Below, in pieces: positions 1-26,133 of a DNA stretch of 64,000 bases (within the stretch, counting starts at the first letter, position 1; the number at the start of each line of letters is the position of its first letter). Location of the stretch: the NCBI GenBank assembly GCA_902546765.1, contig CACCLG010000005.1:1-64000 (forward strand), given 5' to 3'. The notes under the pieces are model-generated. The model was given only the letters and a program-made list of their open reading frames with translations. It was not told the DNA's origin and did no database searches. Both the position numbers and the translations under genes were made by a program. Origin of the DNA: an uncultured Pelagibacteraceae bacterium. Its GTDB lineage: Bacteria > Pseudomonadota > Alphaproteobacteria > Pelagibacterales > Pelagibacteraceae.

Positions 1-619
1 TGCACATAAGTTTTCATCAGGTTCATTTACGGAGGGAAGATTGGCATCTAAAGCAGCTGTTAAATACATTCAGGATAAAAAAGCTGATGATATTCATGTT
101 TCTGATGAACAATTGGAGAAGTTGAAAGCAGAAATATTTAAACCGATAGAGAACTATACAGTTGGAAGGAACGAGATAACTGGTGGAACTGTTTCCCCAA
201 GTTATATACTTCCGATTCAAGGTCTTCAGAGACTTCAAAAAATTATGGATGAATATTGTGGTGGTTTGACCAATAATTACATGACCAATGACAATCTTCT
301 TAAAAAAGGCATCGAACAACTTGAAATGTTAGAGGAAGACCTGGAAAATGTTGGAGCAGAGGATTATCACCAATTAATGAGAGCTTGGGAGCTTAAACAT
401 AGAGCTGTGACCTCTCAATGTGTTACTCATCATACTCTTTTTAGAGAAGAAACACGTTGGCCAGGATATTATTACAGAGGCGATCACATGAAGCTTGATG
501 ATGAAAATTGGCATTGTTTAACTGTTTCTAGAAGAGATCCTGAGACAGGAAAATTTGAAATGGAGAAAAAGCCGGTTTATCATATAGTTGATGATAAAGA
601 GAAAAAACAAGCCTCTTAG
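1..619 (+). CDS. aprA: Adenylylsulfate (APS) reductase alpha subunit, C-terminal part
   Basis: Only the 3' end of the gene lies in the window. The reading frame is open from base 2, so the apparent TTG start at 41 is not the true start. The visible part opens with AHKFSSGSFTEGR and continues into the C-terminal region typical of AprA, including the stretch ETRWPGYYYRGDH. AprA is the FAD subunit that interconverts APS with sulfite and AMP. In an aerobic organism with sulfonate lyases next door, it most likely runs in the sulfite-oxidising direction. AprB would be expected upstream, outside the window. The family call is firm; the direction is inferred. Confidence 0.93.
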   Translation, partial: AHKFSSGSFTEGRLASKAAVKYIQDKKADDIHVSDEQLEKLKAEIFKPIENYTVGRNEITGGTVSPSYILPIQGLQRLQKIMDEYCGGLTNNYMTNDNLLKKGIEQLEMLEEDLENVGAEDYHQLMRAWELKHRAVTSQCVTHHTLFREETRWPGYYYRGDHMKLDDENWHCLTVSRRDPETGKFEMEKKPVYHIVDDKEKKQAS

Positions 620-637
620 AGACCACCCCAAATAATA

Positions 638-988
638 ATGAGCATTGTTGATAAATCTGATACTGAAATTATAAGTATTGCAGATCCTATCTGGCAAAAC
701 CTTGTTAAATCCTCAAATATTAAAGATTATGGGGGGTTTACTAGGGATTTGTCCTCACAAATGCTTTACGGAGCAAATGAAGTCGAGCTAGGTAAACAGT
801 GGTCAACCAATAAACTTTTGTCATCATTATCTGAAGGATGTAAGGCAATTGGATGTCTTAGAAGAGGAAAGTACGTTACGATAGTCTATAAACAGACAAG
901 CACTGAAGTGTCCGGAGATTTTTTAGGTAGGCTCGTCTTAGGAGATGAGGGAGACGAAGTCAAAGTCTTTGGAGCAACAATTTTTTAA
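638..988 (+). CDS. Uncharacterised 116-residue protein downstream of aprA
   Basis: This small soluble protein begins 18 bases after the aprA stop, in the same direction, so it is probably co-transcribed. There is no signal peptide or membrane segment. The size and the alternation of an N-terminal helical part with a C-terminal strand-rich part suggest an NTF2/SnoaL-like small alpha-beta fold, but that is only an impression. Two cysteines near residues 69 and 74 (GCKAIGC) could matter in a redox or sulfur context. I do not recognise the family. Its position ties it to sulfite/APS metabolism. Confidence 0.8.
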   Translation: MSIVDKSDTEIISIADPIWQNLVKSSNIKDYGGFTRDLSSQMLYGANEVELGKQWSTNKLLSSLSEGCKAIGCLRRGKYVTIVYKQTSTEVSGDFLGRLVLGDEGDEVKVFGATIF

Positions 989-990
989 TT

Positions 991-1029
991 TTAGCAAATA
1001 TTTCTTGCAAAGTGTTAAACTTGTGCTAA
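991..1029 (+). other. Stem-loop after the aprA-linked gene
   Basis: TTAGCA at 991-996 is complementary to TGCTAA at 1024-1029. An inner AAGT/ACTT pairing surrounds a short loop. No T-run follows, so it is not a standard intrinsic terminator. It may stabilise or process the upstream transcript, and it lies just before the next small reading frame. Confidence 0.3.
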
Positions 1030-1038
1030 TTGGCGGGT

Positions 1039-1182
1039 GTGACTAAGATATTTTTAAAAAAATCAAAAAAAATTAAATCAGTCACACTCAATTATTTAGT
1101 AAATCATGCAAAATCATTTGTATTTTTTGGCTTAGGCATTTACTGGTCAGTGATTGTAATAAGCACATTTTTAGGGTCTTAA
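1039..1182 (+). CDS. Possible 47-residue membrane peptide (GTG start)
   Basis: An open frame starts with GTG at 1039 and stops with TAA at 1180-1182. The product has a lysine-rich N-terminus (MTKIFLKKSKKIKS), then a hydrophobic segment with aromatic residues (FVFFGLGIYWSVIVISTFLG). This is a plausible single membrane span with a positive-inside flank. It fills the gap between the aprA-linked gene and the TauE-family exporter, both on the same strand. A weak GGCGGG lies immediately upstream. Its position suggests an accessory membrane component, but the function is unknown and the start is uncertain. Confidence 0.5.
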   Translation: MTKIFLKKSKKIKSVTLNYLVNHAKSFVFFGLGIYWSVIVISTFLGS

Positions 1183-1230
1183 TCTTAAGCAAATTGTTGA
1201 CTTTGTTTCCTTAGAGGAATATCAAAAAGC

Positions 1231-2319
1231 ATGGAGTATTTTCTTCCAATTGCTCAAGTAGAAATAAATTTACTTTTTATATTTGGATTAAGTCTTGTAG
1301 TTGGAATTTTATCAGGATTATTTGGTGTGGGCGGAGGTTTTTTAATGACACCGTTCTTAATATTTTTAGGCATTCCTCCCGCTTATGCAGTTCCAAATGA
1401 AGCAAGTAATATTTTAGGAACATCTGTTTCAGGATCTACAACACATTATTTAAAGGGTACTTTAGATTACAAAATGGGTTTAATGATTGTTGTTGGTGGA
1501 ACAATTGGAACATTGCTTGGAATTTTAACTTTTTCTTATTTTAAGGATATAGGAAAAATAAATGTAGTTATATCACTTGCGTATATGTACATCCTAGCAA
1601 TACTTGGAACATTAATGTTAATTCAAGGCGTATCCGAAATTGATAAGGCAAGAAAAAAAATTGTAGTAAAGAAAAAATTGCATACACACTATTGGATACA
1701 TGGCCTTCCTTTAAGAATGCGATTTAAAAAATCAAAATTATATGAAAGTGCATTTACACCAATTATTATTGGATTAGTTGTTGGATTTATTGCTGCAATC
1801 ATGGGTGTAGGAGGCGCATTTATTTTAGTTCCTGCCATGATTTATATAATTGGAATGCCAACAAAATTAATCCCAGGAACATCTTTATTTGTAACTATAT
1901 TTGTTAGTGCAATTGTTACAGTTTTACATGCATTTAATTATGGAACAATTGACTTAGTTTTAGTTTTTGTTCTTATATTGGGATCAATTATAGGAGTACA
2001 ACTAGGTCAAAAATTTGGAGAAAAAGTTGACAGCTCAGAATTTAAGACAATTTTAGCAATTCTTCTTCTTCTCGTTGGAATAGCAATTGCTTACGACACA
2101 TTTATTAAAGAAGAAAAAATAGTTGAAATAGTAATTAATGGATCAACAAGTCTTGGAAAAATTGGAGAATTTATTTTAAATTATTCTAAAGACTTACCAA
2201 TTTTTTATGGACTTACTTCAGTTATATTGGCAGTTGGTCTAGGAGTAGGGGCTGCTGTAATTAGAAATTATTTTTCAAAGTGGAATGCTTCTAGAGAGGC
2301 AAAATTAAAAGCCTCTTAA
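1231..2319 (+). CDS. TauE/SafE-family sulfite or sulfonate exporter
   Basis: This is a 362-residue polytopic membrane protein with the duplicated architecture of the TauE/SafE (DUF81) family. Each half carries a glycine-rich motif: GLFGVGGGFLMTPFLI near residue 30 and MGVGGAFILVPAMIYI near residue 190. A charged loop of about 40 residues separates the halves. Family members export sulfite or organosulfonates or act as anion permeases. Lying between aprA and the sulfonate lyase genes, it most likely disposes of sulfite or sulfate. It converges on the minus-strand exporter gene with a 4-base overlap of stop codons. Confidence 0.85.
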   Translation: MEYFLPIAQVEINLLFIFGLSLVVGILSGLFGVGGGFLMTPFLIFLGIPPAYAVPNEASNILGTSVSGSTTHYLKGTLDYKMGLMIVVGGTIGTLLGILTFSYFKDIGKINVVISLAYMYILAILGTLMLIQGVSEIDKARKKIVVKKKLHTHYWIHGLPLRMRFKKSKLYESAFTPIIIGLVVGFIAAIMGVGGAFILVPAMIYIIGMPTKLIPGTSLFVTIFVSAIVTVLHAFNYGTIDLVLVFVLILGSIIGVQLGQKFGEKVDSSEFKTILAILLLLVGIAIAYDTFIKEEKIVEIVINGSTSLGKIGEFILNYSKDLPIFYGLTSVILAVGLGVGAAVIRNYFSKWNASREAKLKAS

Positions 2320-3401
2320 TTTAAAACTATTTCACTTAAATAATTAATCGCAACCAAGCTTACAAATCCCACAGTTAAAAGAGATACAAATCCGACTATA
2401 AACGGCTTGTATCCCATTTTATTTAAGTCTTTTAGATTTGTAGACAATCCTATTGCAGCCATGGCCATTGTTAAAAATATTTTTGAGGAAATTTTTATTG
2501 TATTAACGAAGTCGACCCACATTTCTTTTCCTGTTACACTTGTATTATAGAAAAATACATCTCCAATATTTCTTAAAATAATAAATGCAATAAAACCTAA
2601 TACAAAATATGGAAAAATTTTAACAACCGAATACTTTTGATCGTGATTTTGACCCCTATTATATAGATAAGCGAATAAAGGTATCATTATAACAAGAAAT
2701 GTATTTCTAATTAGCTTTGTAACTGTCGCTATATTTAGAGTTTCAGGACTATTAAATTGTTGATCGTAAATAAGACCAGCCGCAGCTACTTGTGAGGTCT
2801 CGTGTATTGCAGTTCCAAGAAATAAACCAACAAATAATGGATCTCCATCAAAATAAATGTTGGCAAAATAAGGATATATTAACATTGCTAGAATACCGAA
2901 CAATGTCATATTAGCTACAGCATATGCCACCTCACTTTTCTTTGCGTTAATTACCGGCGCTGTCGCAATAATAGCTGTTGTTCCACAAACGGTGCTACCA
3001 ATCGCAATTAAGTAAGACATTCCTCTTGATATTTTGAGTTTTTGAATGAGAAGTTTTATGACGATCAATACACTAATAATACATACAATTATTAAAGGAA
3101 TAGCTATCGATCCAAATTTTATAAATTCGAAAGGTTTTAATTGAATTCCTAAACAAATAATACCAAGTTTAAGAATATTCTTTTGAGTAAAGTCCAATCC
3201 AATTAAAAAACCTGCCCTAATATTAAAAATATTTCCTAAAATTAAACCTAAAATAATTGCAATCATTGCTGTTGAAATAGGACTGTTTTCATATCCCAAC
3301 AATTCAATTCCAATAATATTATTTAAACCTTCAGAAAAAGAATAAAGTATAAAAGCTAAAACTATACCAGGTAATAAATTTAAAGGATGTTTTAAAGTCA
3401 A
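2316..3401 (-). CDS. YeiH/UPF0324-family putative sulfate exporter
   Basis: This 361-residue protein has about ten hydrophobic segments. Its pattern, with NSPISTAMIAIILGLILGN near residue 38, GSTVCGTTAIIATAPVI in the middle and AMAAIGLSTNL towards the end, is that of the YeiH (Cons_hypoth698) family. These proteins are often annotated as sulfate exporters and are frequent neighbours of sulfonate-degrading genes. It lies 13 bases downstream of suyB on the same strand and is probably co-transcribed with suyAB. It would remove sulfite or sulfate released by the lyase. Transport substrate is inferred from context. Confidence 0.85.
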   Translation of the reverse strand: MTLKHPLNLLPGIVLAFILYSFSEGLNNIIGIELLGYENSPISTAMIAIILGLILGNIFNIRAGFLIGLDFTQKNILKLGIICLGIQLKPFEFIKFGSIAIPLIIVCIISVLIVIKLLIQKLKISRGMSYLIAIGSTVCGTTAIIATAPVINAKKSEVAYAVANMTLFGILAMLIYPYFANIYFDGDPLFVGLFLGTAIHETSQVAAAGLIYDQQFNSPETLNIATVTKLIRNTFLVIMIPLFAYLYNRGQNHDQKYSVVKIFPYFVLGFIAFIILRNIGDVFFYNTSVTGKEMWVDFVNTIKISSKIFLTMAMAAIGLSTNLKDLNKMGYKPFIVGFVSLLTVGFVSLVAINYLSEIVLN

Positions 3402-3414
3402 GTGTAGTTAAAGT

Positions 3415-4581
3415 TTATGCACTTCTATAAAGCTTAGTCATTACAAATTCTTTATGACCTAAAGCTTCAGCGCAGGTAAGTCTACCATTAGCTACTCTTA
3501 ATGTAGCTTTAATAAGTTCATCTCCAGCTTGATCTAAATTCATTTCTCTTGAAAGTATTTTAGATACATCAACATCAATATGTTCACTCATAGTTTTTGC
3601 TGTTAATGGGTTAGCCGTTAACTTAATGACTGGCTCAATTGGATTTCCTATAATGTTCCCTTGTCCTGTTGGAAATAAATGAATATTATATCCACCTGCC
3701 GCTTGCAAAGTTACGCATTCAGCGGCTGCCGATGAAGTATCCATAAAATATAAACCAGGCCCCTTAGTTGGTTCTTCAGCAGGTTCTAAGACATCTATAA
3801 ATTGTCTTGAACCAATTTTTTGAAAATTACCAAATGCTTTTTCCTCAATAGTTGTGAGACCACCTGCAATATTTCCAGCTGTAGGTTGACTTTCAGACAA
3901 ATCATCCGTTGCTTCTTTTAAAATAAAATCATTATAAGCATTCCAAGTTTTTTTAAACTTTTCTTGTGCCTCTGGTGTTTTTCCTCTTTTTTCACAAACA
4001 GTTTCAGCTCCAGTTAGTTCTGAAGTTTCTCCAAAACATAAATGAACACCTAGAGGTTCTAATTTATCCATTAAGTTTCCAACCGTAGGGTTTGATGCAA
4101 GTCCAGATGTTGTATCTGACTCACCACATTTAACAGAAATCCATAAATCACTTATTGGCCTTTCTTCTCTCTGTTTTTCTGAAGCCCAAATTGAAAATTC
4201 TTGTGCTTTTTTTGAAACTTTCGCAATTGTATCAATATCTCCAACACCCTCTATACTGAAACCTTCAACTGGTTTTCCAGTAACTGCAATTGCATCTACA
4301 ATTCTTTTTGTCCATTTGGGTTCAATGCCAATAACTATCACTGCTGCAACATTTGGATTTCTACCTGTCCCAATCATAGTTCTAAAGTGTAATTCTAGGT
4401 CAGCACCAAATTGCAATCTTCCGTAAGAATGAGGCAATGCGATTGTTCCTTTAATATTATTTGCAACTGCTTCTGCGCAAGCATTTGAAATATCGTCCAC
4501 AGGGAGTATTATCACATGGTTTCTTGTTCCAGATCTGCCGTCTTCTCTTTTATAACCTAAAAATGATTTTGGAATTTCCAT
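3415..4581 (-). CDS. suyB: (2R)-sulfolactate sulfo-lyase, beta subunit
   Basis: This 388-residue protein belongs to the UxaA/altronate-dehydratase-like C-terminal family. It begins [20 protein letters not shown], which closely matches the SuyB start, and contains the conserved [16 protein letters not shown] region. With SuyA it splits (R)-3-sulfolactate into pyruvate and sulfite in the cytoplasm. The gene follows suyA by one base, which is typical of the two-subunit enzyme. Altronate or galactarate dehydratase is the alternative. The short length, separate small subunit and sulfur-rich neighbourhood (xsc, TauE, YeiH, aprA) favour SuyB. Confidence 0.9.
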
Positions 4582-4582
4582 C

Positions 4583-4870
4583 TTACCATTTCTTAGTTTT
4601 TACATTATGAACGTGAACGTGTTCACCTTTTTTAATCGACTTAACTACCTTACCAATATCGTGTCCATATTTTAAAATAGTATCACCCTCATTTAAGTCA
4701 ATCATTGCTATTTTGTGACCTAAAGGAATTTCATCCTTTGATTGAATTTGAACAGATTTATCATTCTCCATTACCCAACAATTACAGTCTTGGCTTGGTG
4801 TAATTTTTTCTATGACAACCACGCCTACATTATCTTTTTCGTCGTGAATTATTATATCTGTGTTTGCCAT
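4583..4870 (-). CDS. suyA: (2R)-sulfolactate sulfo-lyase, alpha subunit (SAF domain)
   Basis: This small SAF-domain protein carries [11 protein letters not shown] near its start and [20 protein letters not shown] near its end, as in the small subunit of sulfolactate sulfo-lyase and the N-terminus of altronate dehydratases. I chose the ATG at 4868-4870, giving 95 residues starting [13 protein letters not shown], because it matches the family start. An upstream in-frame extension to 4903 (TTG then ATG) would add 11 residues without similarity. It is divergent from xsc, with under 100 bases between the two starts, so one regulatory region probably serves both. Confidence 0.88.
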
Positions 4871-4962
4871 TGTGACGATTTCTTTGTTTGAAATTTGCAT
4901 CAACTTATATATTAATCGGACTCTTTAACAATTAAAAAAATAGAATTTAGGACATCATTGTT

Positions 4963-6747
4963 ATGACTAAAATGACGACCGAGGAAGCTTTTGTAAAAGT
5001 CCTTCAGATGCATGGCATAGAACATGCTTTTGGAATTATTGGGTCTGCGTTCATGCCAATTTCAGATATTTTTCCTTCAGCAGGAATTACTTTTTGGGAT
5101 GTAGCACACGAAACAAACGGGGGATTGATTGCAGATGGATACACAAGAGCGACAGGAAAAATGTCCATGGTTATTGCACAAAATGGTCCGGGAATTACAG
5201 GTTTAGTTACACCAATTAAAACTGCTTATTGGAATCACACTCCTTTACTTTTAGTAACACCACAAGCCGCGAACAAAACTATGGGGCAAGGTGGCTTCCA
5301 AGAAGTAGAACAGATGAATTTATTCAAAGACATGGTTTGTTATCAAGAAGAAGTTAGAGATCCTTCTAGAATGGCTGAGGTTTTAAACAGAGTTATTGAA
5401 AAAGCATTTAGAGGATCAGCCCCTGCACAAATAAATGTACCAAGAGATTACTGGACACAAGTTATAGATATTGAATTACCTCCAATTGTAAGATTTGAAA
5501 GGCAAGGTGGGGGACAAGATGCAATTGATAAAGCAGCAAAATTATTATCTGATGCAAAATTTCCAGTAATATTATCAGGAGCAGGAGTTGTAATTGGTGG
5601 AGCCATAGAAGATTGTAAAAAATTAGCTGAGAAATTAGATGCCCCTGTTTGTAATGGATATCAACATAATGATAGTTTTCCAGGAAGCCATCCCTTGGCG
5701 GTTGGACCATTGGGTTACAATGGATCTAAAGCAGCAATGGAATTGATCTCAAAAGCTGACGTAGTTTTGGCATTAGGCACAAGACTAAATCCATTTTCAA
5801 CTCTTCCAGGTTATGGAATAGATTATTGGCCAAAAGATGCCACTATAATTCAAGTAGATATGAATCCAGATAGAATTGGATTAACAAAAAAAGTTACAGT
5901 TGGAATTTGTGGAGATGCAAAATTAGTTTCACAACAAATTTTACAAAAACTTTCATCTAATGCTGGAGATAACAATAGAGAAGAAAGGAGAAATTTAATA
6001 CATAAAACAAAATCAGCATGGCTACAAACTCTTACTAGCCTAGATCATGAAGATGATGATCCAGGGACTGTTTGGAATAAAGAAGCAAGAGAAAGAGACT
6101 CAGATCGAATGTCTCCGAGACAAGCATGGAGAGCAATTCAAGTTGGAATGCCAGATAATGTAATTATTTCAAGTGACATAGGAAATAATTGTGCAATTGG
6201 AAACGCTTATCCAACTTTTGAAAAAGGAAGAAAATATTTAGCACCAGGCTTATTTGGTCCTTGTGGATATGGTTTCCCATCGATTTTAGGAGCAAAAATT
6301 GGATGTCCTGATACACCAGTAATTGGTTTTGCAGGTGATGGTGCATTTGGAATATCTATGAATGAGATGAGTTCGTGCGCAAGAAAAGAATGGCCAGCAA
6401 TTACAATGGTTATTTTTAGAAATTATCAGTGGGGTGCAGAAAAAAGAAATTCAATTTTATGGTTCGATGATAATTTTGTTGGAACAGAACTTGATCCAGA
6501 ATTAAGTTACGCAAAGGTAGCAACTGCTTGCGGTTTAAAAGGAGTTACTGTTAAAACAATGGAAGAAACTACAGCTGCAATTAAACAATCTTGTGAAGAT
6601 CAAAAACAAGGAATTACAACATTTATTGAAGTTATCTTAAATCAAGAATTAGGCGAGCCATTTAGAAGAGATGCAATGAAAAAACCTGTTCGTGTGGCTG
6701 GGATTAAAAAAGAGGATATGAAACCTCAAAAATCACTAGTAAATTAA
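4963..6747 (+). CDS. xsc: Sulfoacetaldehyde acetyltransferase
   Basis: This 594-residue protein is a thiamine-diphosphate enzyme. The N-terminal Pyr domain carries the conserved glutamate at residue 50 in VAHETNGG. The cofactor motif GDGAFGISMNEM (458 onward) ends in a conserved RN, and the length matches Xsc. The opening GIIGSAFMPISDIFPSAGI is characteristic of Xsc rather than acetolactate synthase. It converts sulfoacetaldehyde and phosphate into acetyl phosphate and sulfite. It is transcribed away from suyAB and followed by an 11-bp perfect palindrome. No phosphate acetyltransferase gene lies in the window, although one would be needed to use the acetyl phosphate. Confidence 0.93.
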   Translation: MTKMTTEEAFVKVLQMHGIEHAFGIIGSAFMPISDIFPSAGITFWDVAHETNGGLIADGYTRATGKMSMVIAQNGPGITGLVTPIKTAYWNHTPLLLVTPQAANKTMGQGGFQEVEQMNLFKDMVCYQEEVRDPSRMAEVLNRVIEKAFRGSAPAQINVPRDYWTQVIDIELPPIVRFERQGGGQDAIDKAAKLLSDAKFPVILSGAGVVIGGAIEDCKKLAEKLDAPVCNGYQHNDSFPGSHPLAVGPLGYNGSKAAMELISKADVVLALGTRLNPFSTLPGYGIDYWPKDATIIQVDMNPDRIGLTKKVTVGICGDAKLVSQQILQKLSSNAGDNNREERRNLIHKTKSAWLQTLTSLDHEDDDPGTVWNKEARERDSDRMSPRQAWRAIQVGMPDNVIISSDIGNNCAIGNAYPTFEKGRKYLAPGLFGPCGYGFPSILGAKIGCPDTPVIGFAGDGAFGISMNEMSSCARKEWPAITMVIFRNYQWGAEKRNSILWFDDNFVGTELDPELSYAKVATACGLKGVTVKTMEETTAAIKQSCEDQKQGITTFIEVILNQELGEPFRRDAMKKPVRVAGIKKEDMKPQKSLVN

Positions 6748-6763
6748 CTAAACAAATTTAATA

Positions 6764-6788
6764 ATTATGTATATTGTATATACATAAT
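6764..6788 (+). terminator. Perfect 11-bp AT-rich palindrome after xsc
   Basis: ATTATGTATAT at 6764-6774 is exactly complementary to ATATACATAAT at 6778-6788 with a TGT loop. The following bases (ATATTTTC) are T-rich but not a clean T-run. Position just after the xsc stop suggests a terminator or transcript-stabilising hairpin that separates xsc from the next operon. As a dyad it could also be an operator. Confidence 0.45.
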
Positions 6789-6811
6789 ATATTTTCATAA
6801 TCTGTAAAATT

Positions 6812-8116
6812 TTGAGACTAATTAATGACAACAGCTGTGTTTGGATAAACCAACTTCAAGCTAGGAATAACACTAAAATATTATCGGAAAATTTAATTTG
6901 TGATTATCTTATAGTCGGAGCTGGATATACTGGTTTATCTGCAGCTAGAAAACTTTCTGAAATTAAAAGAACATCAAAAATTATTGTAATAGATGCGCAA
7001 TTGGCAGGTGAAGGTGGTAGTGGAAGAAACTCCGGTTACTTAGTGGATACAACTTTAAATGATGGATTTACGTCAAACAAAGATATTAATAATTATAAAA
7101 CTAAAACAAAAATTTATGATTTAGGTATTAAAACTGTCAAAAAATATATTAAAGAATTTCAAGTCGATTGTGATTGGAACGAATGTGGAAAATATTTTGC
7201 ATCCTCAAGTCCAAAAGATGAAGATAAAGCAAGATTATTTGGCAAACTTCTAAATGAGCTGGGTTTTCAAAATGAAGTATTAGATAAATCAAAATTTAAA
7301 GATAGGTTAGGAACCTCTTTTTACAAAATTGGAGTTTATACAAAAGGTGGAATACTTTTAAATCCTGCTAAATTAGCAAGATCAATGATTGGTACTTTGC
7401 CAGACAATGTTGAATTATATGAAAATACAGAGTTATTAAATTGGAAAAAAGTTTCAAATAATATTGAGTGTCAATTTGAAAAAAATCAAATTAAAGCAAA
7501 AAAAATAATATTTTGTACTAATGGGTTTTTAAAATCATTAAATATTGAAAAAAATTTTTGTTTTCCAATTACTCTTACAGCTAGTATGACACGCCCTCTA
7601 ACAGAAAATGAATTTAAAGAAATAGGGTCTCCAAAGGAGTGGGGGGTGTTACCAATTAGACCTATGGGAGCAACCATTAGAACCACGAAAGATCGTAGAA
7701 TATTAATTAGAAATACTGCTGAAGTTAAAAACCCTTATTCAATGGAGAGATCAAAATTAATTAAAAAATCTAAATTACATCTTGCTGGGATTAAAAAAAG
7801 ATTTCCAAATTTGCCTGATAATATAATAGAAAATAGTTGGTCTGGTATTGTTTGTAGAAGTGGTAATAGTTCACAAATTTTTAAAAAAATTGATAATAAT
7901 ATTTATGCTGCAGGCTGTTACAACGGTTCAGGTATTGGAGTAGGAACTTTATTTGGTGAACAAATAGCATTAATGGCTACTGACCAACAATCTGATGAAA
8001 TATCTGTTATAGATGAAAGACAAAAACCCAATTGGTTACCACCTCAACCCTTTTTAAATCTAGGAATTCACACTAGATTAGCCTACGAAAGAATTAGAGC
8101 AAGGTCTGATGTTTAA
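6812..8116 (+). CDS. FAD-dependent oxidoreductase (DAO family), candidate amine/taurine dehydrogenase
   Basis: This 434-residue protein has an N-terminal Rossmann motif VGAGYTG at residues 35-41 and the conserved GEGGSGRNSG segment at 66-75, as in gamma-glutamylputrescine oxidase and related amine-oxidising enzymes. A C-terminal CYNGSGIGVGTLFG is the second FAD-contact region. It starts with TTG. Lying next to xsc, it could deaminate taurine to sulfoacetaldehyde as TauY does, but another amine or amino acid is equally possible. It overlaps the next small gene by 8 bases. Family call is firm; substrate is inferred. Confidence 0.85.
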   Translation: MRLINDNSCVWINQLQARNNTKILSENLICDYLIVGAGYTGLSAARKLSEIKRTSKIIVIDAQLAGEGGSGRNSGYLVDTTLNDGFTSNKDINNYKTKTKIYDLGIKTVKKYIKEFQVDCDWNECGKYFASSSPKDEDKARLFGKLLNELGFQNEVLDKSKFKDRLGTSFYKIGVYTKGGILLNPAKLARSMIGTLPDNVELYENTELLNWKKVSNNIECQFEKNQIKAKKIIFCTNGFLKSLNIEKNFCFPITLTASMTRPLTENEFKEIGSPKEWGVLPIRPMGATIRTTKDRRILIRNTAEVKNPYSMERSKLIKKSKLHLAGIKKRFPNLPDNIIENSWSGIVCRSGNSSQIFKKIDNNIYAAGCYNGSGIGVGTLFGEQIALMATDQQSDEISVIDERQKPNWLPPQPFLNLGIHTRLAYERIRARSDV

Positions 8117-8318
8117 AATAAATAATAACTTAAAAATTTTTTTACTTGTATTAATAGCTATACTTGTTCTTTTTTTTACAAAAGGAAAATATGGAGAATT
8201 TAGTAAAAGCAAATCAATAAAGGCATGTATAATTGCACAAAAAAGTAAATCTAAGGATAAACCTATAGAGGAGATCAAAATTTTTTGTGAAAAGGAAGTA
8301 ACAAAAAAAATAGATTAA
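8109..8318 (+). CDS. Small membrane-anchored protein with two cysteines
   Basis: This 69-residue product has a strongly hydrophobic segment at residues 9-23, preceded by a few polar residues. The soluble tail is lysine-rich and has Cys40 and Cys60. It looks like an N-terminally anchored periplasmic protein in which the cysteines could form a disulfide or hold a cofactor. It overlaps the FAD oxidoreductase by 8 bases and the aminotransferase by one, so the three are probably translationally coupled. The layout resembles the 108-residue protein at 17675-18001. I recognise no family. Confidence 0.7.
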   Translation: MFKINNNLKIFLLVLIAILVLFFTKGKYGEFSKSKSIKACIIAQKSKSKDKPIEEIKIFCEKEVTKKID

Positions 8319-9463
8319 TGAAAAAGTCCAATAGATCTAATGTAGATCCTTTTATTGTAATGGATGTGATGGAAGCTGCTAGAAAAGCAGAACAAGCAGG
8401 TAAAAAAATTATTCATATGGAAGTAGGACAGCCAGGTACGCCTGCTCCGAAGCTTGCAAATGAGTATATAACTAAAGAGTTAAAAAATAATAATCTTGGA
8501 TATACAGTTACTTTAGGCTTACCTCAGTTACGATCTAGAATTTCAAAATTGTATGGCGATTGGTACAACATTGATTTAAATCCAGAAAGAGTAATTATTA
8601 CAACAGGTTCCTCTGGAGGATTTATATTATCGTTTGCAACATTATTTGATGCAGGAGAGAGAGTAGGAATAGGTTCTCCAGGTTATCCAAGTTATAGACA
8701 AATCCTCAAAGCTCAAAATTTAGTACCTGTTGATATTGAAACAAAACTACAAAACAAATATCAACCAACTTCAGAAGATATAAAGAAAAATAATTTAAAT
8801 GGGGTTTTAGTAGCCTCTCCAGCAAATCCAACTGGGTCAATGTTAGATAAATTTTCTCTTACAAAATTAATTGAATGTTCTAAAGAACATAATGTGAGTT
8901 TTATTAGCGATGAAATATATCATGGAATAGAATATGAAAGTAAAGCAGTTTCCGCATTAGAGATAACTGATGATTGCTATGTAATAAATTCCTTTTCAAA
9001 ATATTTTTCTATGACAGGGTGGAGAATTGGATGGATGATTGTTCCCGAGGATCATGTAAGACAAGTTGAAAAAGTTTCACAAAATTTATTTATTTGTCCT
9101 CCACATGCCAGTCAAATCACTGCTCTTGCTGCATTAGATGCTAAAGAAGAGTTAGATCAAAATGTAAATGTTTATAAAAAAAATAGAGAAATTCTTTTGA
9201 AAGAATTACCAGAAGCTGGCTTTTCAACTTTTTCACCACCAGATGGAGCTTTTTATATTTATGTTGATATATCTAAATTTAGGAATGATAGCTTAAATTT
9301 TTGTAAAAGAGTTTTGGACGAAGCAGGTGTTGCAATTACTCCAGGTTTAGATTTTGACCAAAACAGAGGATCAAATACAATCAGATTTTCCTATGCAAGA
9401 AGCACAGAAAACATAATTGAGGGTGCGAGGAGAATTAAAGAATTTATGTTGAAAAATTACTAA
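8318..9463 (+). CDS. Class I/II pyridoxal-phosphate aminotransferase
   Basis: This is a 381-residue fold-type I aminotransferase. Family marks are the ASPANPTGS segment, the SDEIYHGI segment, and the cofactor lysine at residue 228 in NSFSKYFSMTGWRIGW. The C-terminal RFSYARS holds the substrate-carboxylate arginine. It shares a base with the stop of the preceding small gene. In this sulfonate context it could transaminate cysteate to sulfopyruvate, feeding the SuyAB branch, or serve as a general aspartate/alanine-type aminotransferase. Taurine:pyruvate aminotransferase belongs to another subgroup (class III), so Tpa is unlikely. Substrate is unproven. Confidence 0.87.
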   Translation: MKKSNRSNVDPFIVMDVMEAARKAEQAGKKIIHMEVGQPGTPAPKLANEYITKELKNNNLGYTVTLGLPQLRSRISKLYGDWYNIDLNPERVIITTGSSGGFILSFATLFDAGERVGIGSPGYPSYRQILKAQNLVPVDIETKLQNKYQPTSEDIKKNNLNGVLVASPANPTGSMLDKFSLTKLIECSKEHNVSFISDEIYHGIEYESKAVSALEITDDCYVINSFSKYFSMTGWRIGWMIVPEDHVRQVEKVSQNLFICPPHASQITALAALDAKEELDQNVNVYKKNREILLKELPEAGFSTFSPPDGAFYIYVDISKFRNDSLNFCKRVLDEAGVAITPGLDFDQNRGSNTIRFSYARSTENIIEGARRIKEFMLKNY

Positions 9464-20508: not shown

Positions 20509-21297
20509 TTATTGAAGAATACTCATAGGATCAAGTCTCGTTTGAAACCAATTTATTCTAAAATCAAGATGTGGACCCGTTGATCTACCAGTTGAACCAA
20601 CTGTTCCAATAATATCGCCCTGTTTTATCTCATCACCAACATTCACCATTATATCCTCTAAGTGAGAATATATGGTAGATATACCATGACCATGATCCAT
20701 TATTATTGTCCCACCTGTATAATAAAGGTCATCCTCAGCCATAGTAACAATTCCAGACCCTGATGATTTTATTTTCGTACCTTTTTTTGCCGCTATATCA
20801 ATTCCATAATGAGGCCACTTAGGTTTTCCATTGAGAATTCTTTGACTTCCATACACTCCGCTTATCATACCTTTTACAGGCATAATAAATTGATTGGTAA
20901 AAAATGTTAAATCTGAATTAATTGATCTTGCTTTTCCAATCCTACCATTTTCCTCTTTAATTCTTTTATAAACAGACTCAGGTGGAGTAACTTTATTTTC
21001 AGGTAAACCATCTATTTTTTGAATGTTATATTTTCTTTTAAAGACTTTTTTAATTACATTATTTTTTTTTCCATTATTAACTTCTGTAATTTCCAAATCA
21101 AATTTTCTATCTCTATCAATTCCAAATACAAAATATCCATCCTTGGATACTTTAACCTGCTTTTTATCAATAAATACTTTTGAACCTATTTTCGCTTTAC
21201 CTAAAATGAAATGTCCCTGTAAAAACTTACCTTGAAACTCAAGTGCTTGTGCATGAGTAGAGAATATAATTGCTATAAAAAGCAATATTTTCCTCAT
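20509..21297 (-). CDS. M23-family peptidoglycan endopeptidase, exported
   Basis: This 262-residue protein has a signal peptide at 1-18 (MRKILLFIAIIFSTHAQALE). A beta-rich linker follows, then a C-terminal lysostaphin-like domain. Zinc-site elements are HYGID, YSHLED and GPHLDFRINW. The last lacks the second histidine of the textbook HxH pair; HLDW-type variants occur in proteobacterial M23 proteins. It probably trims cell-wall cross-links in the periplasm. It shares one base with the SDR gene upstream and lies 9 bases before the hydratase gene. Confidence 0.88.
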   Translation of the reverse strand: MRKILLFIAIIFSTHAQALEFQGKFLQGHFILGKAKIGSKVFIDKKQVKVSKDGYFVFGIDRDRKFDLEITEVNNGKKNNVIKKVFKRKYNIQKIDGLPENKVTPPESVYKRIKEENGRIGKARSINSDLTFFTNQFIMPVKGMISGVYGSQRILNGKPKWPHYGIDIAAKKGTKIKSSGSGIVTMAEDDLYYTGGTIIMDHGHGISTIYSHLEDIMVNVGDEIKQGDIIGTVGSTGRSTGPHLDFRINWFQTRLDPMSILQ

Positions 21298-22055
21298 TAT
21301 TTAGCTGTCCATCCTCCATCTATAAGAATAGATGTTCCTGTAATCATTGCAGCAGCATCAGATGCTAAAAAACATACAGCGGTTGCAACATCGCTTTCTT
21401 TAGCAGCTTTACCCATTGGTATTCCGTCAAGCGCAAGTTTTTTAAATTTTTTGTTTTTAAAAAATTTTTTAACCATTGGCGTTTCAACAAAAGTAGGGGC
21501 AACAGTATTTACTCTTATATTTCTATTTGCTAATTCAACACCCATACCCTTAGTAAGACCTTCTATACCAAATTTAGTCATGTTATAAACATTTCGACCA
21601 GACATCCCTACATGTCCAAGCTGTGAAGACATATTTATAATAGATCCACCTCTTTTCTTATTTTTAAGCATTTTCTTCACAACTAATTGCGCAACGTTAA
21701 AAGCAGATTTAAGATTAAGATCTACTAGATAATTCATACTTTGTTGTTTTACCTTTTCAAATGGTTCTGGTAAATTTGTACCCGCATTATTTACCAAAAC
21801 GTCAATAAATTTTACTTTTTTTAACTTTTCATTTAAATCGCTATAATCCATTACATCGCAGTGAATTTTAATTAGTTTGCTTTTTACTTTTTTTATATCT
21901 TTTTCTAATTTGTCTAAATCTGATTTTGTTCTACTTAATCCTATTATTATTGCGCCAGCTTCAGCTAATGCTATAGCACATGCTCTACCTAAACCTTTAC
22001 CTGCTCCAGTGACTAAAGCATATTTATTTTTTAAATTGATTTTTTTTAAATACAT
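21297..22055 (-). CDS. Short-chain dehydrogenase/reductase
   Basis: This 252-residue classical SDR has the cofactor motif GAGKGLGRA near residue 17, NNAG near 90, and the catalytic Ser, Tyr and Lys (NMSSQ then YNMTKFG). Closest relatives in such contexts are gluconate 5-dehydrogenase or 3-oxoacyl-ACP reductase-type enzymes, but specificity cannot be read from sequence. It sits between a TerC-family gene and an M23 peptidase gene, all minus strand and touching by one base. It may act with the GMC oxidoreductase on one alcohol or sugar-acid route. Confidence 0.85.
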   Translation of the reverse strand: MYLKKINLKNKYALVTGAGKGLGRACAIALAEAGAIIIGLSRTKSDLDKLEKDIKKVKSKLIKIHCDVMDYSDLNEKLKKVKFIDVLVNNAGTNLPEPFEKVKQQSMNYLVDLNLKSAFNVAQLVVKKMLKNKKRGGSIINMSSQLGHVGMSGRNVYNMTKFGIEGLTKGMGVELANRNIRVNTVAPTFVETPMVKKFFKNKKFKKLALDGIPMGKAAKESDVATAVCFLASDAAAMITGTSILIDGGWTAK

Positions 22056-22636
22056 TAAATAAGTAATTTTATATCAGTATAAATTAGATCTAAAGCCACA
22101 ATTAATATTGCAAATAAACCTAACCACGCAATCCATTTATATTTTTTAATCCAGTTTGAAATTAACGTTGCAGCTGTAGCCATTAATATGATCGATAAAA
22201 CTAGACCAAAAACTAGCAAACCATAATGATCTTTAGCAGCGCCTGCAACGCCTAAAACGTTATCTAAACTCATTGTAAAATCTGCAAGTAAAACAGTAAA
22301 TATTGCTTTAAAGAAACTTGAGTTATCTACTTTTATATTATTTTTCTCATCATCACTATTTTTTATGACATCGGTATAAAGTTTGTAAACAATATAAAGC
22401 AATAACAATCCTCCAATTAATCGTAGTCCAGTGATTTGGAGCAAGTAGGCTGTAATCAAAGTTAAAATAATTCTTAAAATTACAGCACCTCCAATTCCCC
22501 AAAATATAATTTTCTTTCTTTGATCTGGGGGAAATTGAGAAGCAACCATTCCAATAATGATCGCATTGTCACCAGCTAATACTAAATCTATAAAAATTAT
22601 TTGTAAAAGGATTGTAATTTGTTCAGGTGAAAACAT
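22055..22636 (-). CDS. TerC/YjbE-family integral membrane protein
   Basis: This 193-residue protein has about six or seven hydrophobic segments and two acidic motifs. IDLVLAGDNAIIIGMV comes near residue 16 and FTMSLDNVLGVAGA near residue 120, the signature of the TerC family. Relatives have been linked to manganese or calcium export and membrane-protein metalation. It shares a base with the flanking SDR gene and directly follows the GMC gene. Possible role in metal supply or efflux; this is family knowledge, not shown here. Confidence 0.85.
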   Translation of the reverse strand: MFSPEQITILLQIIFIDLVLAGDNAIIIGMVASQFPPDQRKKIIFWGIGGAVILRIILTLITAYLLQITGLRLIGGLLLLYIVYKLYTDVIKNSDDEKNNIKVDNSSFFKAIFTVLLADFTMSLDNVLGVAGAAKDHYGLLVFGLVLSIILMATAATLISNWIKKYKWIAWLGLFAILIVALDLIYTDIKLLI

Positions 22637-24247
22637 TTATGAGTTCAATATCATATCTGCACCTTTTTCAGCAATCATTATAGTGGGTGCATTGGTGTTT
22701 CCAGATGTAATATTAGGCATTATGGATGCATCAATAACTCTAAGATTTTGTATTCCATGAACTGATAATTTATCATTAACCACTGCACTATCATCATTTC
22801 CCATTTTACAAGTTCCAACTGGGTGAAATATTGTTTGAGTGAAATCACTACCAGCTTTAACTAATTCTTCATCTTTAGTAATATGTACCCCAGGCCTATA
22901 TTCTTCAGGTTGATATTTTTTAAAAGTCTCTGTCTCTAGCATTATTTTTCTTACGAGTTTCAAACCTTCGGCAGCAACTATTCTGTCATCTTCTGTAGAA
23001 AGATAATTCATTTTAATTTTTGGATTATCTCTACTATCGTTACTTGATATATTAATTTCCCCTCTACTCGATGGTCTGATGTTAGCAACAGTTGGTGTTA
23101 TTCCTTCAAAATCATGCATAGGAGTAACTCCAAGAATATCTGTGCTTAGTGGCTGGACGTGAAATTGTAAGTTTGGTGTAGCACGTGATGGATCACTTTT
23201 AGTAAAAGCACACACTTGGCTCGCACCCATTGTAATAGGGCCACTTTGTTTAAAAATATACTGAAGACCCATTAAAAACTTTGAATATAAACTCTCAACA
23301 TCTCTATTGAGTGACTTTATATTTTTTAATTTATAAACTGGTCGAAACATCAAATGATCTTGTAAATTTTTCCCCACCCCTTTCAGTTCATGTACAACTT
23401 CTATTCCATGTTTTTTAATTTTTTCACCATCTCCAATTCCTGATATTTGTAATAAATGTGGTGATCCTATTGCACCAGCTGATAAAATAGCTTCTTTATT
23501 GACTTTAATATGATTCAATTTATCTCCAGTAAAAAAACTCACAGTATCTACTGTATTGTTATTAAAATTAAGTTTTTGAACATGAGCATTAACAATAATC
23601 TTTAAATTTTTTCTTTTTTTTATTGGATTTAAGTAACCTTTAGCAGCACTACATCTTAATTTAAAACCAAACTTACTGTGACTTGTTGTAAATTGAAAAA
23701 AACCAACTCCAAAATTATTACCTTTGTTAAAATCTATTGTTTTTGGAATTCCAACTTCTTCTGCAGCATTTTGAAACTCATCAAGTAATTTTAGATTTAT
23801 TTTTTTATTCGCTACTGATATTGGTCCACTGTCATTATGGAATTCACTTTTTCCAAGTTCGTTGTTTTCAGATTTTAAAAAATACGGCAAAACATCATTC
23901 CAACCCCACCCAGTATTTCCAAGTTGGCGCCACACATCATAATCTTCTTTCTGGCCTCTTATCCATAGTAAACCATTGATAGATGAGCTACCACCTAGAG
24001 TTTTTCCTCTTGGATATCTTATTGATCGATTATTCATTGTTTCATCAGGCTCGGTTTTAAAGCACCAATCAACTTTTGGATTATGCATAGTTTTATAGTA
24101 ACCAACTGGAATATGAATCCATGGATAGGTGTCTTTTCCACCTGCTTCAAGCAGTAAAACTTTATTTTTTGGATTTGCAGACAATCTGTTTGCTAAAACA
24201 CATCCTGCCGAACCAGCCCCAATAATAATGTAATCAAAGTTATCCAT
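22637..24247 (-). CDS. GMC-family FAD oxidoreductase (choline dehydrogenase-like)
   Basis: This 536-residue protein has the FAD motif IIGAGSAGCVLANRL at its start and the GMC signatures PRGKTLGGSSSINGL and SAGAIGSPHLLQISG. Active-site histidine and asparagine lie in FHPVGTCKMG and NTNAPT near the C-terminus. It should oxidise an alcohol group of a small organic substrate. BetA-like similarity is general for the family, and no betaine aldehyde dehydrogenase is nearby. It is divergent from the TRAP operon, whose substrate it may process. Confidence 0.85.
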   Translation of the reverse strand: MDNFDYIIIGAGSAGCVLANRLSANPKNKVLLLEAGGKDTYPWIHIPVGYYKTMHNPKVDWCFKTEPDETMNNRSIRYPRGKTLGGSSSINGLLWIRGQKEDYDVWRQLGNTGWGWNDVLPYFLKSENNELGKSEFHNDSGPISVANKKINLKLLDEFQNAAEEVGIPKTIDFNKGNNFGVGFFQFTTSHSKFGFKLRCSAAKGYLNPIKKRKNLKIIVNAHVQKLNFNNNTVDTVSFFTGDKLNHIKVNKEAILSAGAIGSPHLLQISGIGDGEKIKKHGIEVVHELKGVGKNLQDHLMFRPVYKLKNIKSLNRDVESLYSKFLMGLQYIFKQSGPITMGASQVCAFTKSDPSRATPNLQFHVQPLSTDILGVTPMHDFEGITPTVANIRPSSRGEINISSNDSRDNPKIKMNYLSTEDDRIVAAEGLKLVRKIMLETETFKKYQPEEYRPGVHITKDEELVKAGSDFTQTIFHPVGTCKMGNDDSAVVNDKLSVHGIQNLRVIDASIMPNITSGNTNAPTIMIAEKGADMILNS

Positions 24248-24359
24248 AAAATTTTGATAGATATATACATTTTTATCAAAATAAAGTCGATTTGACTTGT
24301 ATATATTTATAATTTCTGAGAGGATCCATCACTTAAATTTAACAATGAGGGACATTAAA

Positions 24360-25451
24360 ATGAAAAAAATCATATCAATGTTGTTTGCAATTACGATGGT
24401 ATTTGGATTTATATCAAATGCTAGTGCAAAAACATTAAAATGTCAGACAGTTCTTAACACTAAGGCAGATGAAGTCAAAATGTTAAAGGACTTTACTGAT
24501 ACAGTAACTACACTAACAAGTGGATCTTTAAAATTTGAGATTTTACCAGCTGGTGCTGTTGTTGGTGTAAAAGAAACTTTAGACGCGGTAGACAAAGGTC
24601 TTATCGACTGTGGATTTGCATGGACACACTACTGGTCAGGAGATCATCCTGCAGCTATGTTGTTTGGATCTCCAGTAGCAGGTGGTGGAGTTGGTATTGA
24701 CAATATTGCATTCTTATCATGGTTTCAGTATGGCGGAGGAAAAGAGCTTTATGACAGATTATGGACAGAAATGGGAAGAGATATTAAAGGATTTATGATT
24801 CAACCAGTTGGGCCTGAGGCTTTAGGTTGGTTTCCAAAACCAATTAAAGATATGGCTGACTTTAGAAAGTATAAGTTTAGAACTCCTCCAGGAATTCCAG
24901 GACAAACATATAAAGACATTGGTATAGCATCTGTAGCCATGGGTGGTGGAGATATTCTGCCAGCATTAGAGGCAGGAACAATTGATGCTGCGGAGTGGTG
25001 TTGTCCTAAACCAGACTTAACTTTTGGTTTCCAAAAAGTTTTAAAACACTATTACTTACAAGGTTTACACCAAGTAGTCGTAAATGCTGACTTTTATATA
25101 ACTGGAAAAACTTATAATGCAATGTCTGATCATGAGAAAAAGTCACTTGAGGTTGCTGCTAATGCTTCATTAGCTAAATCTCTAAGTTACAGAATTTATG
25201 AAAATGGAAAAGCATTAAGAGAGTTAACCACTAAACATGGAGTAATATTAGAGGATACACCTTCTGATTATTTCACAGAATACATGGCAGCTGCTAAAGC
25301 TTCTTTGAATAAGAACGCTGCAGAAAACAAATTTTTTAATGAAGTTTATACTTCAATGAAAAACTTTGCGGATATAGCAGTTCCATTTTGGAGTGGTGCT
25401 CAAATGTCAAATGCTAAGCTAGGAATGGCTCACGCAGCAACATTAAAGTAA
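24360..25451 (+). CDS. dctP: TRAP transporter substrate-binding protein (DctP family)
   Basis: The start is set at the ATG at 24360, preceded by GAGGGA at a good distance. An earlier ATG at 24345 would put a charged leader before the signal peptide. The 363-residue product has a clear signal peptide (MKKIISMLFAITMVFGFISN, ending in ASA). The ligand-binding arginine lies in YKFRTPPGIPGQ, and EAGTIDAAEWCCP resembles keto-acid or hydroxy-acid binders of the TakP type. A strong hairpin separates it from the permease genes, which fits higher expression of the binding protein. Confidence 0.92.
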   Translation: MKKIISMLFAITMVFGFISNASAKTLKCQTVLNTKADEVKMLKDFTDTVTTLTSGSLKFEILPAGAVVGVKETLDAVDKGLIDCGFAWTHYWSGDHPAAMLFGSPVAGGGVGIDNIAFLSWFQYGGGKELYDRLWTEMGRDIKGFMIQPVGPEALGWFPKPIKDMADFRKYKFRTPPGIPGQTYKDIGIASVAMGGGDILPALEAGTIDAAEWCCPKPDLTFGFQKVLKHYYLQGLHQVVVNADFYITGKTYNAMSDHEKKSLEVAANASLAKSLSYRIYENGKALRELTTKHGVILEDTPSDYFTEYMAAAKASLNKNAAENKFFNEVYTSMKNFADIAVPFWSGAQMSNAKLGMAHAATLK

Positions 25452-25472
25452 TCATAAATAATTTTGATTTGT

Positions 25473-25507
25473 TTAGAGCGGACTTAATAGTCCGCTCTAA
25501 TTTTTTT
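25473..25507 (+). terminator. Strong intercistronic hairpin between dctP and dctQ
   Basis: TTAGAGCGGAC (25473-25483) and GTCCGCTCTAA (25490-25500) form a perfect 11-bp stem with a TTAATA loop, followed by seven T. It looks like a rho-independent terminator but lies inside the transporter operon, so partial termination or 3'-end protection of the binding-protein mRNA is likely. Confidence 0.85.
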
Positions 25508-25518
25508 AAAAAGAATTT

Positions 25519-26133
25519 ATGGCAGAAGAACCAAGTAGATTAGACGTATCAGATGAAATGATAGCCGAAAGGCGAAGTGGTTCGGGTAAAATGCCTGAGG
25601 ATATGCCGTTATGGATGGCAAAATCAATTGTCAATATTGATAAATTTAGTAAGTGGATCGGAAGTGTTGTTTGTTGGATATTAATACCTTTAATATTTGC
25701 AATGACATACGAAGTGCTCGCGAGAAAATTTTTTTTAGCGCCAACTATATGGGCCTATGACATAAGTAGATTTTTATATGGTGCTTTATTTATGTTGGGA
25801 GCAGGATATGCTCTTTCTAAAGGTGTACATATAAGAGCAGATTTTTTATACCGTAATTTTAAAATTAAAAATCAAGGTCTAATTGATTTTTGGTTATATT
25901 TATTATTTTATTTTCCAGGATTAATTGTTTTTCTTTACATGACTGTTGGTTATGTAAGCGAGTCTATTCAAAGAGGTGAAAGAGGAATGGATACCACTTG
26001 GATGCCATATATGTGGCCAATTAAGTCTTGTTTACTAATAGGTATTATATTTTTATTAATTCAAGGAATTTCTGAATTACTTAAAAGTTATTGGGCAGCT
26101 AAAAAAGGTGTTTGGCCTGGAAAAGATAAATGA
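25519..26133 (+). CDS. dctQ: TRAP transporter small permease (DctQ)
   Basis: This 204-residue protein has a soluble N-terminus of about 40 residues and four hydrophobic segments. It carries the DctQ-typical stretch TYEVLARKFFLAPTIWAYDISRF and the GYALSKGVHIRADF loop. It forms the small membrane subunit with the DctM protein, and the two overlap by 4 bases. The pair drives Na+-coupled uptake of the ligand captured by the periplasmic protein. Confidence 0.9.
   Translation: MAEEPSRLDVSDEMIAERRSGSGKMPEDMPLWMAKSIVNIDKFSKWIGSVVCWILIPLIFAMTYEVLARKFFLAPTIWAYDISRFLYGALFMLGAGYALSKGVHIRADFLYRNFKIKNQGLIDFWLYLLFYFPGLIVFLYMTVGYVSESIQRGERGMDTTWMPYMWPIKSCLLIGIIFLLIQGISELLKSYWAAKKGVWPGKDK

Follow-up and report, generated by a model that had tools for sequence, protein, structure and literature searches.

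In the ocean, SAR11 bacteria rank among the most abundant cells, and algae make sulfonates as a major product. It is not settled whether SAR11 breaks sulfonates down to sulfite or all the way to sulfate: ATP sulfurylase (Sat), the enzyme that normally comes last, is absent, and according to the taurine passages of PMC10356861 no culture has been shown to release sulfate from taurine. The question is raised here by a stretch of 64,000 nucleotides from an uncultured Pelagibacteraceae bacterium (bases 1–64000 of the 67-kb contig G000:C5, from a genome that is 65% complete; the whole stretch is referred to as the window), which would represent one edge of a SAR11 island for the degradation of C2 and C3 sulfonates. 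The answer proposed is that a HIT-family protein, encoded in this island in related genomes, may close the SAR11 sulfite-oxidation pathway in place of ATP sulfurylase, a reading to which we give a probability of roughly 0.45. The proposal is drawn from genome context and from the activities of distant relatives of the protein.

In the proposed pathway, SuyAB would convert sulfolactate to pyruvate and sulfite, and Xsc would convert sulfoacetaldehyde to acetyl phosphate and sulfite. The sulfoacetaldehyde would perhaps come from isethionate, by way of a GMC dehydrogenase and a TRAP importer, and perhaps from taurine-like amines, by way of a flavin adenine dinucleotide (FAD)-dependent oxidase. Part of the sulfite would be exported through TauE and YeiH. 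The remainder would be oxidized in the cytoplasm by AprBA, the adenosine 5′-phosphosulfate (APS) reductase, anchored by AprM, with sulfite and AMP forming APS and two electrons passing to the membrane. The canonical ATP sulfurylase step is missing, and the HIT protein, encoded before aprM or after suyB, would replace it, breaking APS via an adenylylated histidine to sulfate and either AMP (hydrolysis), which would return to AprBA, or ADP (phosphorolysis). We hold somewhat more tentatively the full form of this scheme, in which the island HIT protein splits APS to sulfate and AMP or ADP with AMP recycled as the carrier, and in which lineages lacking the HIT gene may use a small nucleotidyltransferase instead.

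The contig begins at base 1 of the window, inside aprA, and the 5′ part of this gene lies beyond the contig end together with the upstream DNA, which therefore cannot be read in G000. In a close relative (G043, with SuyB and aprA both 99% identical to those of the window), a complete aprA is preceded by the genes for HIT, AprM and AprB. The order in relatives of genus g1 is pabB-pabA-pabC, HIT (132 residues), a 264-residue membrane protein, aprB, aprA, and a 116-residue protein. The 264-residue protein, with four predicted membrane segments and invariant histidines, is encoded directly upstream of aprB-aprA in the SAR11 relatives, and it adjoins aprBA in 16 of 20 non-SAR11 alphaproteobacterial apr loci. 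It fits AprM, the name being given from its position, membrane segments and conservation. AprM is reported to precede aprBA always in lineage I, which includes Pelagibacter, in the aprM passages of PMC2211403.

A canonical sat gene over the TIGR00339 cut-off was found in none of the 147 SAR11-family genomes of the survey set; no search for CysD/CysN was made. An earlier reading of the window from its letters (the sequence-only reading) had pictured one oxidation route for sulfite. In its canonical form this route is incomplete: aprB, whose presence that reading had left to be checked, is found in the relatives, and sat does not reach the cut-off. The sequence-only reading had given the absence of aprB and sat as a refuting condition, and one half of this, the lack of sat, is observed. 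AprA is over its cut-off in 22 of 385 alphaproteobacterial genomes, two of which are SAR11, and 18 of the 20 others also have a TIGR00339 match over the cut-off; the exceptions are G463, without a match, and G173, whose Sat match is partial and lies at the end of a contig. Among 20 apr loci from 19 non-SAR11 genomes, 15 have sat no more than 1.7 kb from aprA or aprM, one has it 12.7 kb away, and four have no sat on the contig. The sat gene of Allochromatium vinosum directly precedes aprMBA (apr passages of PMC3779200). That most SAR11 have no ATP sulfurylase has been stated in the passages concerned of PMC10356861, and those of PMC5069961 give cysDNCHIJ and sat as absent from Ca. P. ubique, with cysC listed in several strains in its Table 3.

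The island subfamily of HIT proteins is found in 39 of the 147 SAR11 genomes, that is, in 39 of the 68 with aprA and in none of the 79 without it (Fisher P = 2e-17, a value that ignores relatedness). The gene is located within 1.6 kb of aprA in 34 of the 39 genomes and 8–17 bp from suyB in 15, with 11 genomes belonging to both groups. It is on another contig in the remaining genome (G010). Linkage to aprA or suyB is consequently seen in 38 of the 39 genomes, in two different arrangements, before aprM and after suyB. A separate scan of named genomes, seeded with a non-SAR11 HIT protein and so made without selection for apr, but with a reach limited to close relatives, yielded 18 loci: that of the query itself, 16 of SAR11, and one of Gastranaerophilales. 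All 16 SAR11 loci are in the apr-suy island, one with the HIT gene after suyB and 15 with it before aprM (at one of these 15, L136, aprM is cut by the contig end).

The island HIT protein matches the Pfam HIT family (PF01230, 71 bits) and DcpS-C, and the H-x-H-x-H triad is invariant in all 12 aligned HIT sequences. Among solved structures it matches Ap4A phosphorylase (5.8e-14), the best structural matches being HIT proteins of unstated function. Another HIT gene, distinct from the island gene and with a strong PF01230 match (73–94 bits), is present in 30 of 32 SAR11 genomes; in G050 the island gene is the only one seen, and G000 has one weak PF01230 match broken by a stop. In a tree from which 8 of 51 rows had been dropped as near-copies of others, five non-island SAR11 HIT proteins group together with 100/100 support, separately from the island type.

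Several relatives of the HIT protein have been reported to act on APS. Human and Arabidopsis Fhit are described as liberating AMP from it, and HIT proteins of plants, humans and nematodes are reported to cleave it to AMP or ADP (APS passages of PMC7072326). The title of a paper cited in the same source describes Hint4 and DcpS as acting on APS both as hydrolases and as phosphorylases, giving AMP and ADP. No paper linking a HIT protein to apr genes or to an APS reductase operon was found in the literature searched. An APS:phosphate adenylyltransferase, which Thiobacillus is said to possess, would be a further precedent.

A number of observations weigh against assigning the last step to the HIT protein. 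To our knowledge, no activity has been described for any SAR11 HIT protein. The island HIT gene is not seen in 29 of the 68 genomes with aprA; many of these are fragmentary, and they include eight genomes of genus g4 (87–96% complete) and G083 (98%). Inspection of the apr region in G075 and in G083 showed no HIT gene, and none is seen in G000, where the DNA upstream of apr is lacking from the assembly. Two other genomes, G063 and G035, carry a second, unlinked copy. The two island groups of HIT are separate, supported clades in the tree, with a single origin not rejected (approximately unbiased test, P = 0.119), and independent recruitment is for this reason not claimed. Sat-like matches below the cut-off (136–256 bits) are present in five of the 147 SAR11 genomes, three of which (G002, G010 and G074) have AprA. 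Outside SAR11, the HIT gene stands alongside apr in only one of 20 loci, that of the isolate OFTM99 (L124), which has a protein identical to one of G382:C30. The order there is sat, aprB, aprA, a CxxCxxCC protein, HIT, xsc, a phosphate-acetyltransferase-like gene (our reading) and GMC; sat and HIT are carried together, and HIT is no replacement in this organism. HIT proteins 48–53% identical to that of OFTM99 are found in seven more of the 385 alphaproteobacterial genomes, six of them without a true AprA and the seventh (G267) with AprA on a different contig from HIT. No island gene was seen within 5 kb of HIT in these seven genomes, except for a 30% identical FAD oxidase match in two. Because similar HIT proteins occur away from island genes, mostly without AprA, the subfamily cannot be considered specific for APS, and the idea of an APS-only subfamily was rejected. 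Moreover, the alphaproteobacterium G463 (L107, 99% complete) has aprMBA with neither a sat match nor a HIT relative near the locus, and no candidate replacement gene was found in the 15 kb inspected around it. Finally, a different gene, for a nucleotidyltransferase of 124–130 residues resembling nicotinamide mononucleotide (NMN) adenylyltransferase, is the usual neighbor of apr in SAR11 genomes with aprA and without HIT.

These observations lend themselves to other explanations. The HIT protein may be a general hydrolase of AMP derivatives (Ap3A, Ap4A, AMP-NH2) whose gene is carried along in the locus, with sulfite exported mainly through TauE and YeiH and the little APS that forms lost by side reactions. 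Fhit-like enzymes act on several AMP derivatives (substrate passages of PMC7072326 and PMC8704414), and both the similar HIT proteins without apr and the 29 genomes without HIT are as such a hydrolase would have them. This explanation is nonetheless unlikely in our estimate, as the island HIT is an extra gene in the 30 genomes with another strong PF01230 match, and it is restricted to genomes with aprA (39 of 39), with linkage in 38 of them in two arrangements. It is quite unlikely that the island amounts to the SAR11 sulfonate metabolism already described, with AprBA serving in sulfite detoxification and APS handled by an enzyme encoded elsewhere in the genome. That picture can draw on the SAR11 passages of PMC12636525, PMC5069961 and PMC10356861 and on the five Sat-like matches below the cut-off, but it leaves the linkage of HIT to aprMBA and suyB unexplained, and no canonical sat over the cut-off accompanies it in any of the 147 genomes.

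The small nucleotidyltransferase next to aprM may instead be a minimal ATP sulfurylase, producing ATP and sulfate from APS and pyrophosphate, with a kinase partner acting as APS kinase and HIT as a later substitute. Of the 23 genomes that have both this gene and aprA but no HIT, 19 carry it no more than 5 kb from aprA, as compared to none of the 21 with HIT before aprM (positions were counted in 73 of the 78 genomes with the gene, and the five omitted all lack aprA, leaving the counts for aprA genomes unaffected). In genus g4 it precedes aprM, and several lineages have it either fused to an APS-kinase-like protein or next to one. On the other hand, it is near aprA in 11 of the 13 genomes with HIT after suyB, so that the two genes are not simply exclusive, and it is also present in 20 genomes without aprA. 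In NCBIfam it matches NMN adenylyltransferases best (30 bits), the Pfam ATP-sulfurylase match is 12.3 bits, and comparison with the Sat profile gave a probability of 1.7%. The kinase half scores 36 bits with the APS kinase model TIGR00455, whose cut-off is 138.7. Stretches 41–46% identical to the fusion are found in five phage records (Stenotrophomonas, Clavibacter, Xanthomonas), an occurrence that would fit salvage of nicotinamide adenine dinucleotide as well. With the failed Sat comparison, the NMN adenylyltransferase matches, the 20 genomes without aprA and the phage records, a mini ATP sulfurylase was rejected as the principal explanation, and we regard it as very unlikely. Either HIT or the nucleotidyltransferase is in the island in 58 of the 68 genomes with aprA. 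The ten with neither (G000, G011, G013, G020, G025, G042, G057, G083, G097 and G130) are 63–78% complete, except for G042, G083 and G097.

The fusions of kinase and nucleotidyltransferase are located at L112:9384-10229, L119:6471-7247 and L113:9247-10028, and the two are separate genes in some SAR11. At locus L115 (G018, 98% complete, with no aprA or suyB match), the nucleotidyltransferase is beside a TauE-like gene (our reading), and the locus looks as if aprMBA had been deleted.

The island itself is conserved across SAR11. AprA was found in 68 of the 147 genomes and SuyB relatives in 69, of which G065 and G143 have only a distant type (~30% identical), leaving 67 that are counted. Both genes are present in 64 genomes, aprA alone in four, suyB alone in three, and neither in 76. 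Nineteen relative loci, in stretches of up to 20 kb, were picked from the SuyB-positive genomes; xsc is present in 17 of them, aprA in 17, tauE in 15, yeiH in 10, the FAD oxidase in eight and the aminotransferase in two. Named Pelagibacter loci also hold the island, and by such relatives the window belongs to SAR11. In G074, aprA is ~20 kb away from suyB. The association of these genes is far beyond chance. In this comparison with other SAR11 genomes, which the sequence-only reading had proposed, suyB is accompanied by xsc and by aprA in most of the relative loci.

SuyB (388 residues) and SuyA (106 residues) are adjacent split subunits with domains of the galactarate/altronate dehydratase type (UxaA/GarD). 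SuyB is 68–71% identical to genes on plasmids of Paracoccus, Methylobacterium and Sinorhizobium. Three of the plasmid loci were opened; each has a SuyA-like gene, and GntR regulators, hydroxyacid (sulfolactate-type) dehydrogenases and exporters of the YeiH/TauE kind are found among them. At two (L170 and L171), suyAB is followed downstream by a gene whose annotation is putative sulfate exporter family. The sequence-only reading had named kinship of SuyB with altronate dehydratases, or of Xsc with acetolactate synthases, as fatal to its interpretation, and neither was found. The identity of SuyB is 60–71% to the nearest plasmid genes, in contrast to 27–32% to rows annotated as altronate dehydratase, and a 14-row tree places it within a 100/100 group of seven rows, separate from four rows of altronate/galactarate dehydratases. 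The assignment of Xsc rests on a curated equivalog profile, where that of SuyB rests on the tree: TIGR03457 gives 972 bits (cut-off 676), and the best acetolactate synthase model, TIGR00118, gives 300.5 bits (cut-off 538). These comparisons support the assignment of SuyAB as a sulfolactate sulfo-lyase, with release of sulfite predicted, and agree with the earlier view of SuyAB and Xsc as sulfite-releasing enzymes. The Xsc of the window is ~80% identical to an annotated xsc product of Azospirillum, where the gene adjoins a molybdoenzyme gene set that we read as SoeABC-like. A small protein encoded before the Azospirillum xsc was considered as a homolog of the 116-residue protein and ruled out, having no similarity to it.

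The features of the island and of a second module in the window are listed in the table.

Features of the window discussed in the text (feature, coordinates, strand, basis of assignment)
aprA 3′ end, last 205 codons, dissimilatory APS reductase alpha subunit	2..619	+	TIGR02061 295.7 bits, model positions 422-616
Conserved 116-residue soluble protein, function unassigned, 3′ of aprA in SAR11	638..988	+	position, conservation
TauE/SafE-family exporter, probable sulfite/sulfonate exporter	1231..2319	+	PF01925 154.5 bits; 9 predicted membrane segments
Putative exporter of sulfite/sulfate, YeiH family (SuyZ-like), 3′ of suyB	2316..3401	-	PF03601 220 bits
suyB, (2R)-sulfolactate sulfo-lyase large subunit (predicted)	3415..4581	-	tree, identity to plasmid SuyB
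suyA, sulfo-lyase small subunit (predicted)	4583..4903	-	matches galactarate dehydratase N-terminal part; adjoins suyB in SAR11 and plasmid relatives
xsc, sulfoacetaldehyde acetyltransferase, divergent from suyAB	4963..6747	+	TIGR03457 972 bits
FAD-dependent amine oxidase of the DAO family, a possible feeder that would form sulfoacetaldehyde	6812..8116	+	PF01266 136 bits
Class I/II aminotransferase, weakly associated with the island	8318..9463	+	PF00155 189 bits
Short-chain dehydrogenase of the GMC/TRAP module	21297..22055	-	PF13561 191 bits
TerC/YjbE-family membrane protein of the module	22055..22636	-	TIGR03717 210 bits, cut-off 134.8
GMC oxidoreductase, candidate isethionate dehydrogenase	22637..24247	-	GMC family membership
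TRAP transporter DctP-DctQ-DctM, candidate importer of sulfonates, divergent from the GMC gene	24297..27464	+	PF03480, PF04290, PF06808

All the genes that the sequence-only reading had named in bases 1–9463 are open reading frames where it placed them, with the expected family matches. Its observation of one island is confirmed, including the APS reductase gene (of which the 3′ end is in the window) and two exporter-type membrane proteins, and its metabolic interpretation is partly supported. The YeiH protein passes PF03601 but, at 138 bits, is below the cut-off of 232.6 for TIGR00698; its classification goes no further than the Pfam family, and it is a putative exporter. The feeder genes that the sequence-only reading had suggested up to 9.46 kb are present, but their connection to the island is weak, as seen from their counts among the 19 loci, and the Pfam and NCBIfam profile searches gave no sulfonate-specific family match for the FAD oxidase or the aminotransferase. 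That reading missed aprM and HIT, which are beyond base 1 in the relatives, as well as the GMC/TRAP module inside the window. A scan for promoters and terminators found sites no more numerous than in shuffles, and Rfam at gathering thresholds found three tRNAs and no other match.

The GMC gene shares a 20-kb stretch with xsc in nine of the 19 relative loci, and its neighbors in the module are seen without it, near the end of the stretch, in three more (L035, L038 and L048). By analogy, the GMC and TRAP module may handle isethionate. In Ruegeria pomeroyi, an iseJ dehydrogenase with an iseKLM TRAP transporter is annotated for isethionate; the isethionate passages of the two sources (PMC4334477, PMC10130141) contain no assignment to SAR11.

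The 116-residue protein encoded after aprA has no Pfam or NCBIfam match. Among 12 SAR11 sequences, 55 of its 116 columns are invariant, and a homolog (44% identical) follows aprA in one other alphaproteobacterium (L088). On the other side of the apr genes, the pabB-pabA-pabC genes of g1 (L036:748-3195) have a counterpart in other SAR11 genera, where a CADD-family protein is encoded at about the same place (L043:3895-4560, L048:4301-5026 and L115:9460-10131; TIGR04305 gives 300 bits for L043, with a cut-off of 200, and the other two were judged by eye). CADD has a role in the synthesis of para-aminobenzoate, and this would be a natural swap of two routes to that compound. In genus g6, slightly upstream of aprM, a cytochrome c close to SorU (L048:5064-5450; NF052248 87.4 bits, cut-off 100) is a possible alternative electron acceptor.

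The broad metabolic reading of the island is right and is already in print. The core genes aprAB, suyAB and xsc in Pelagibacteraceae and a proposed role of AprAB in removing sulfite are given in the sulfonate passages of PMC12636525, and these, together with the corresponding passages of PMC5069961 and PMC10356861, cover both the use of AprBA by SAR11 to dispose of sulfite and the fact that most members have no ATP sulfurylase. The strategy of sulfite disposal that the sequence-only reading had thought noteworthy is accordingly published chemistry. What is added here is a specific candidate gene, from gene order and co-occurrence, for the end of a pathway that has no ATP sulfurylase. With a candidate in the right operon, the question becomes testable with one purified protein. 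If the HIT protein does act on APS in this manner, it would represent a second way of using APS reductase oxidatively.

The island shares parts with several known systems. The Pelagibacteraceae core described in PMC12636525 has the same genes and the same role for AprAB; HIT, aprM, the exporters and the layout of the locus are not described in its sulfonate passages. The sat-aprMBA locus of A. vinosum (apr passages of PMC3779200 and PMC2211403) has the same order of aprM, aprB and aprA, and the AprBA of Pelagibacter also belongs to lineage I. In A. vinosum, however, sat is immediately before aprM, and in SAR11 genus g1 HIT is found at this position and canonical sat is not. Ca. Taurinisymbion ianthellae, described as converting taurine to sulfite and then to sulfate in the pathway passages of PMC10356861, resembles the island in having Xsc and a cytoplasmic AprAB, and differs from it in using Sat and Qmo. 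The suyAB clusters of Paracoccus (L170 and L171) are similar in their SuyB (~70% identical), in the split SuyA and SuyB, and in the exporter-family gene nearby. In comparison with the island, a GntR regulator is alongside, dehydrogenases are present in L171, and no APS reductase is annotated in the stretch shown. As in iseRMLKJ of R. pomeroyi (gene-cluster passages of PMC4334477), the dehydrogenase gene of the SAR11 module adjoins a TRAP transporter; the gene order is different, the short-chain dehydrogenase and TerC are added in SAR11, and the two are likened by family, not by the sequence of IseJ. Lastly, Fhit, Hint4 and DcpS (APS passages of PMC7072326) are HIT-family proteins that produce AMP or ADP from APS, which is the reaction proposed for the HIT protein of the island.

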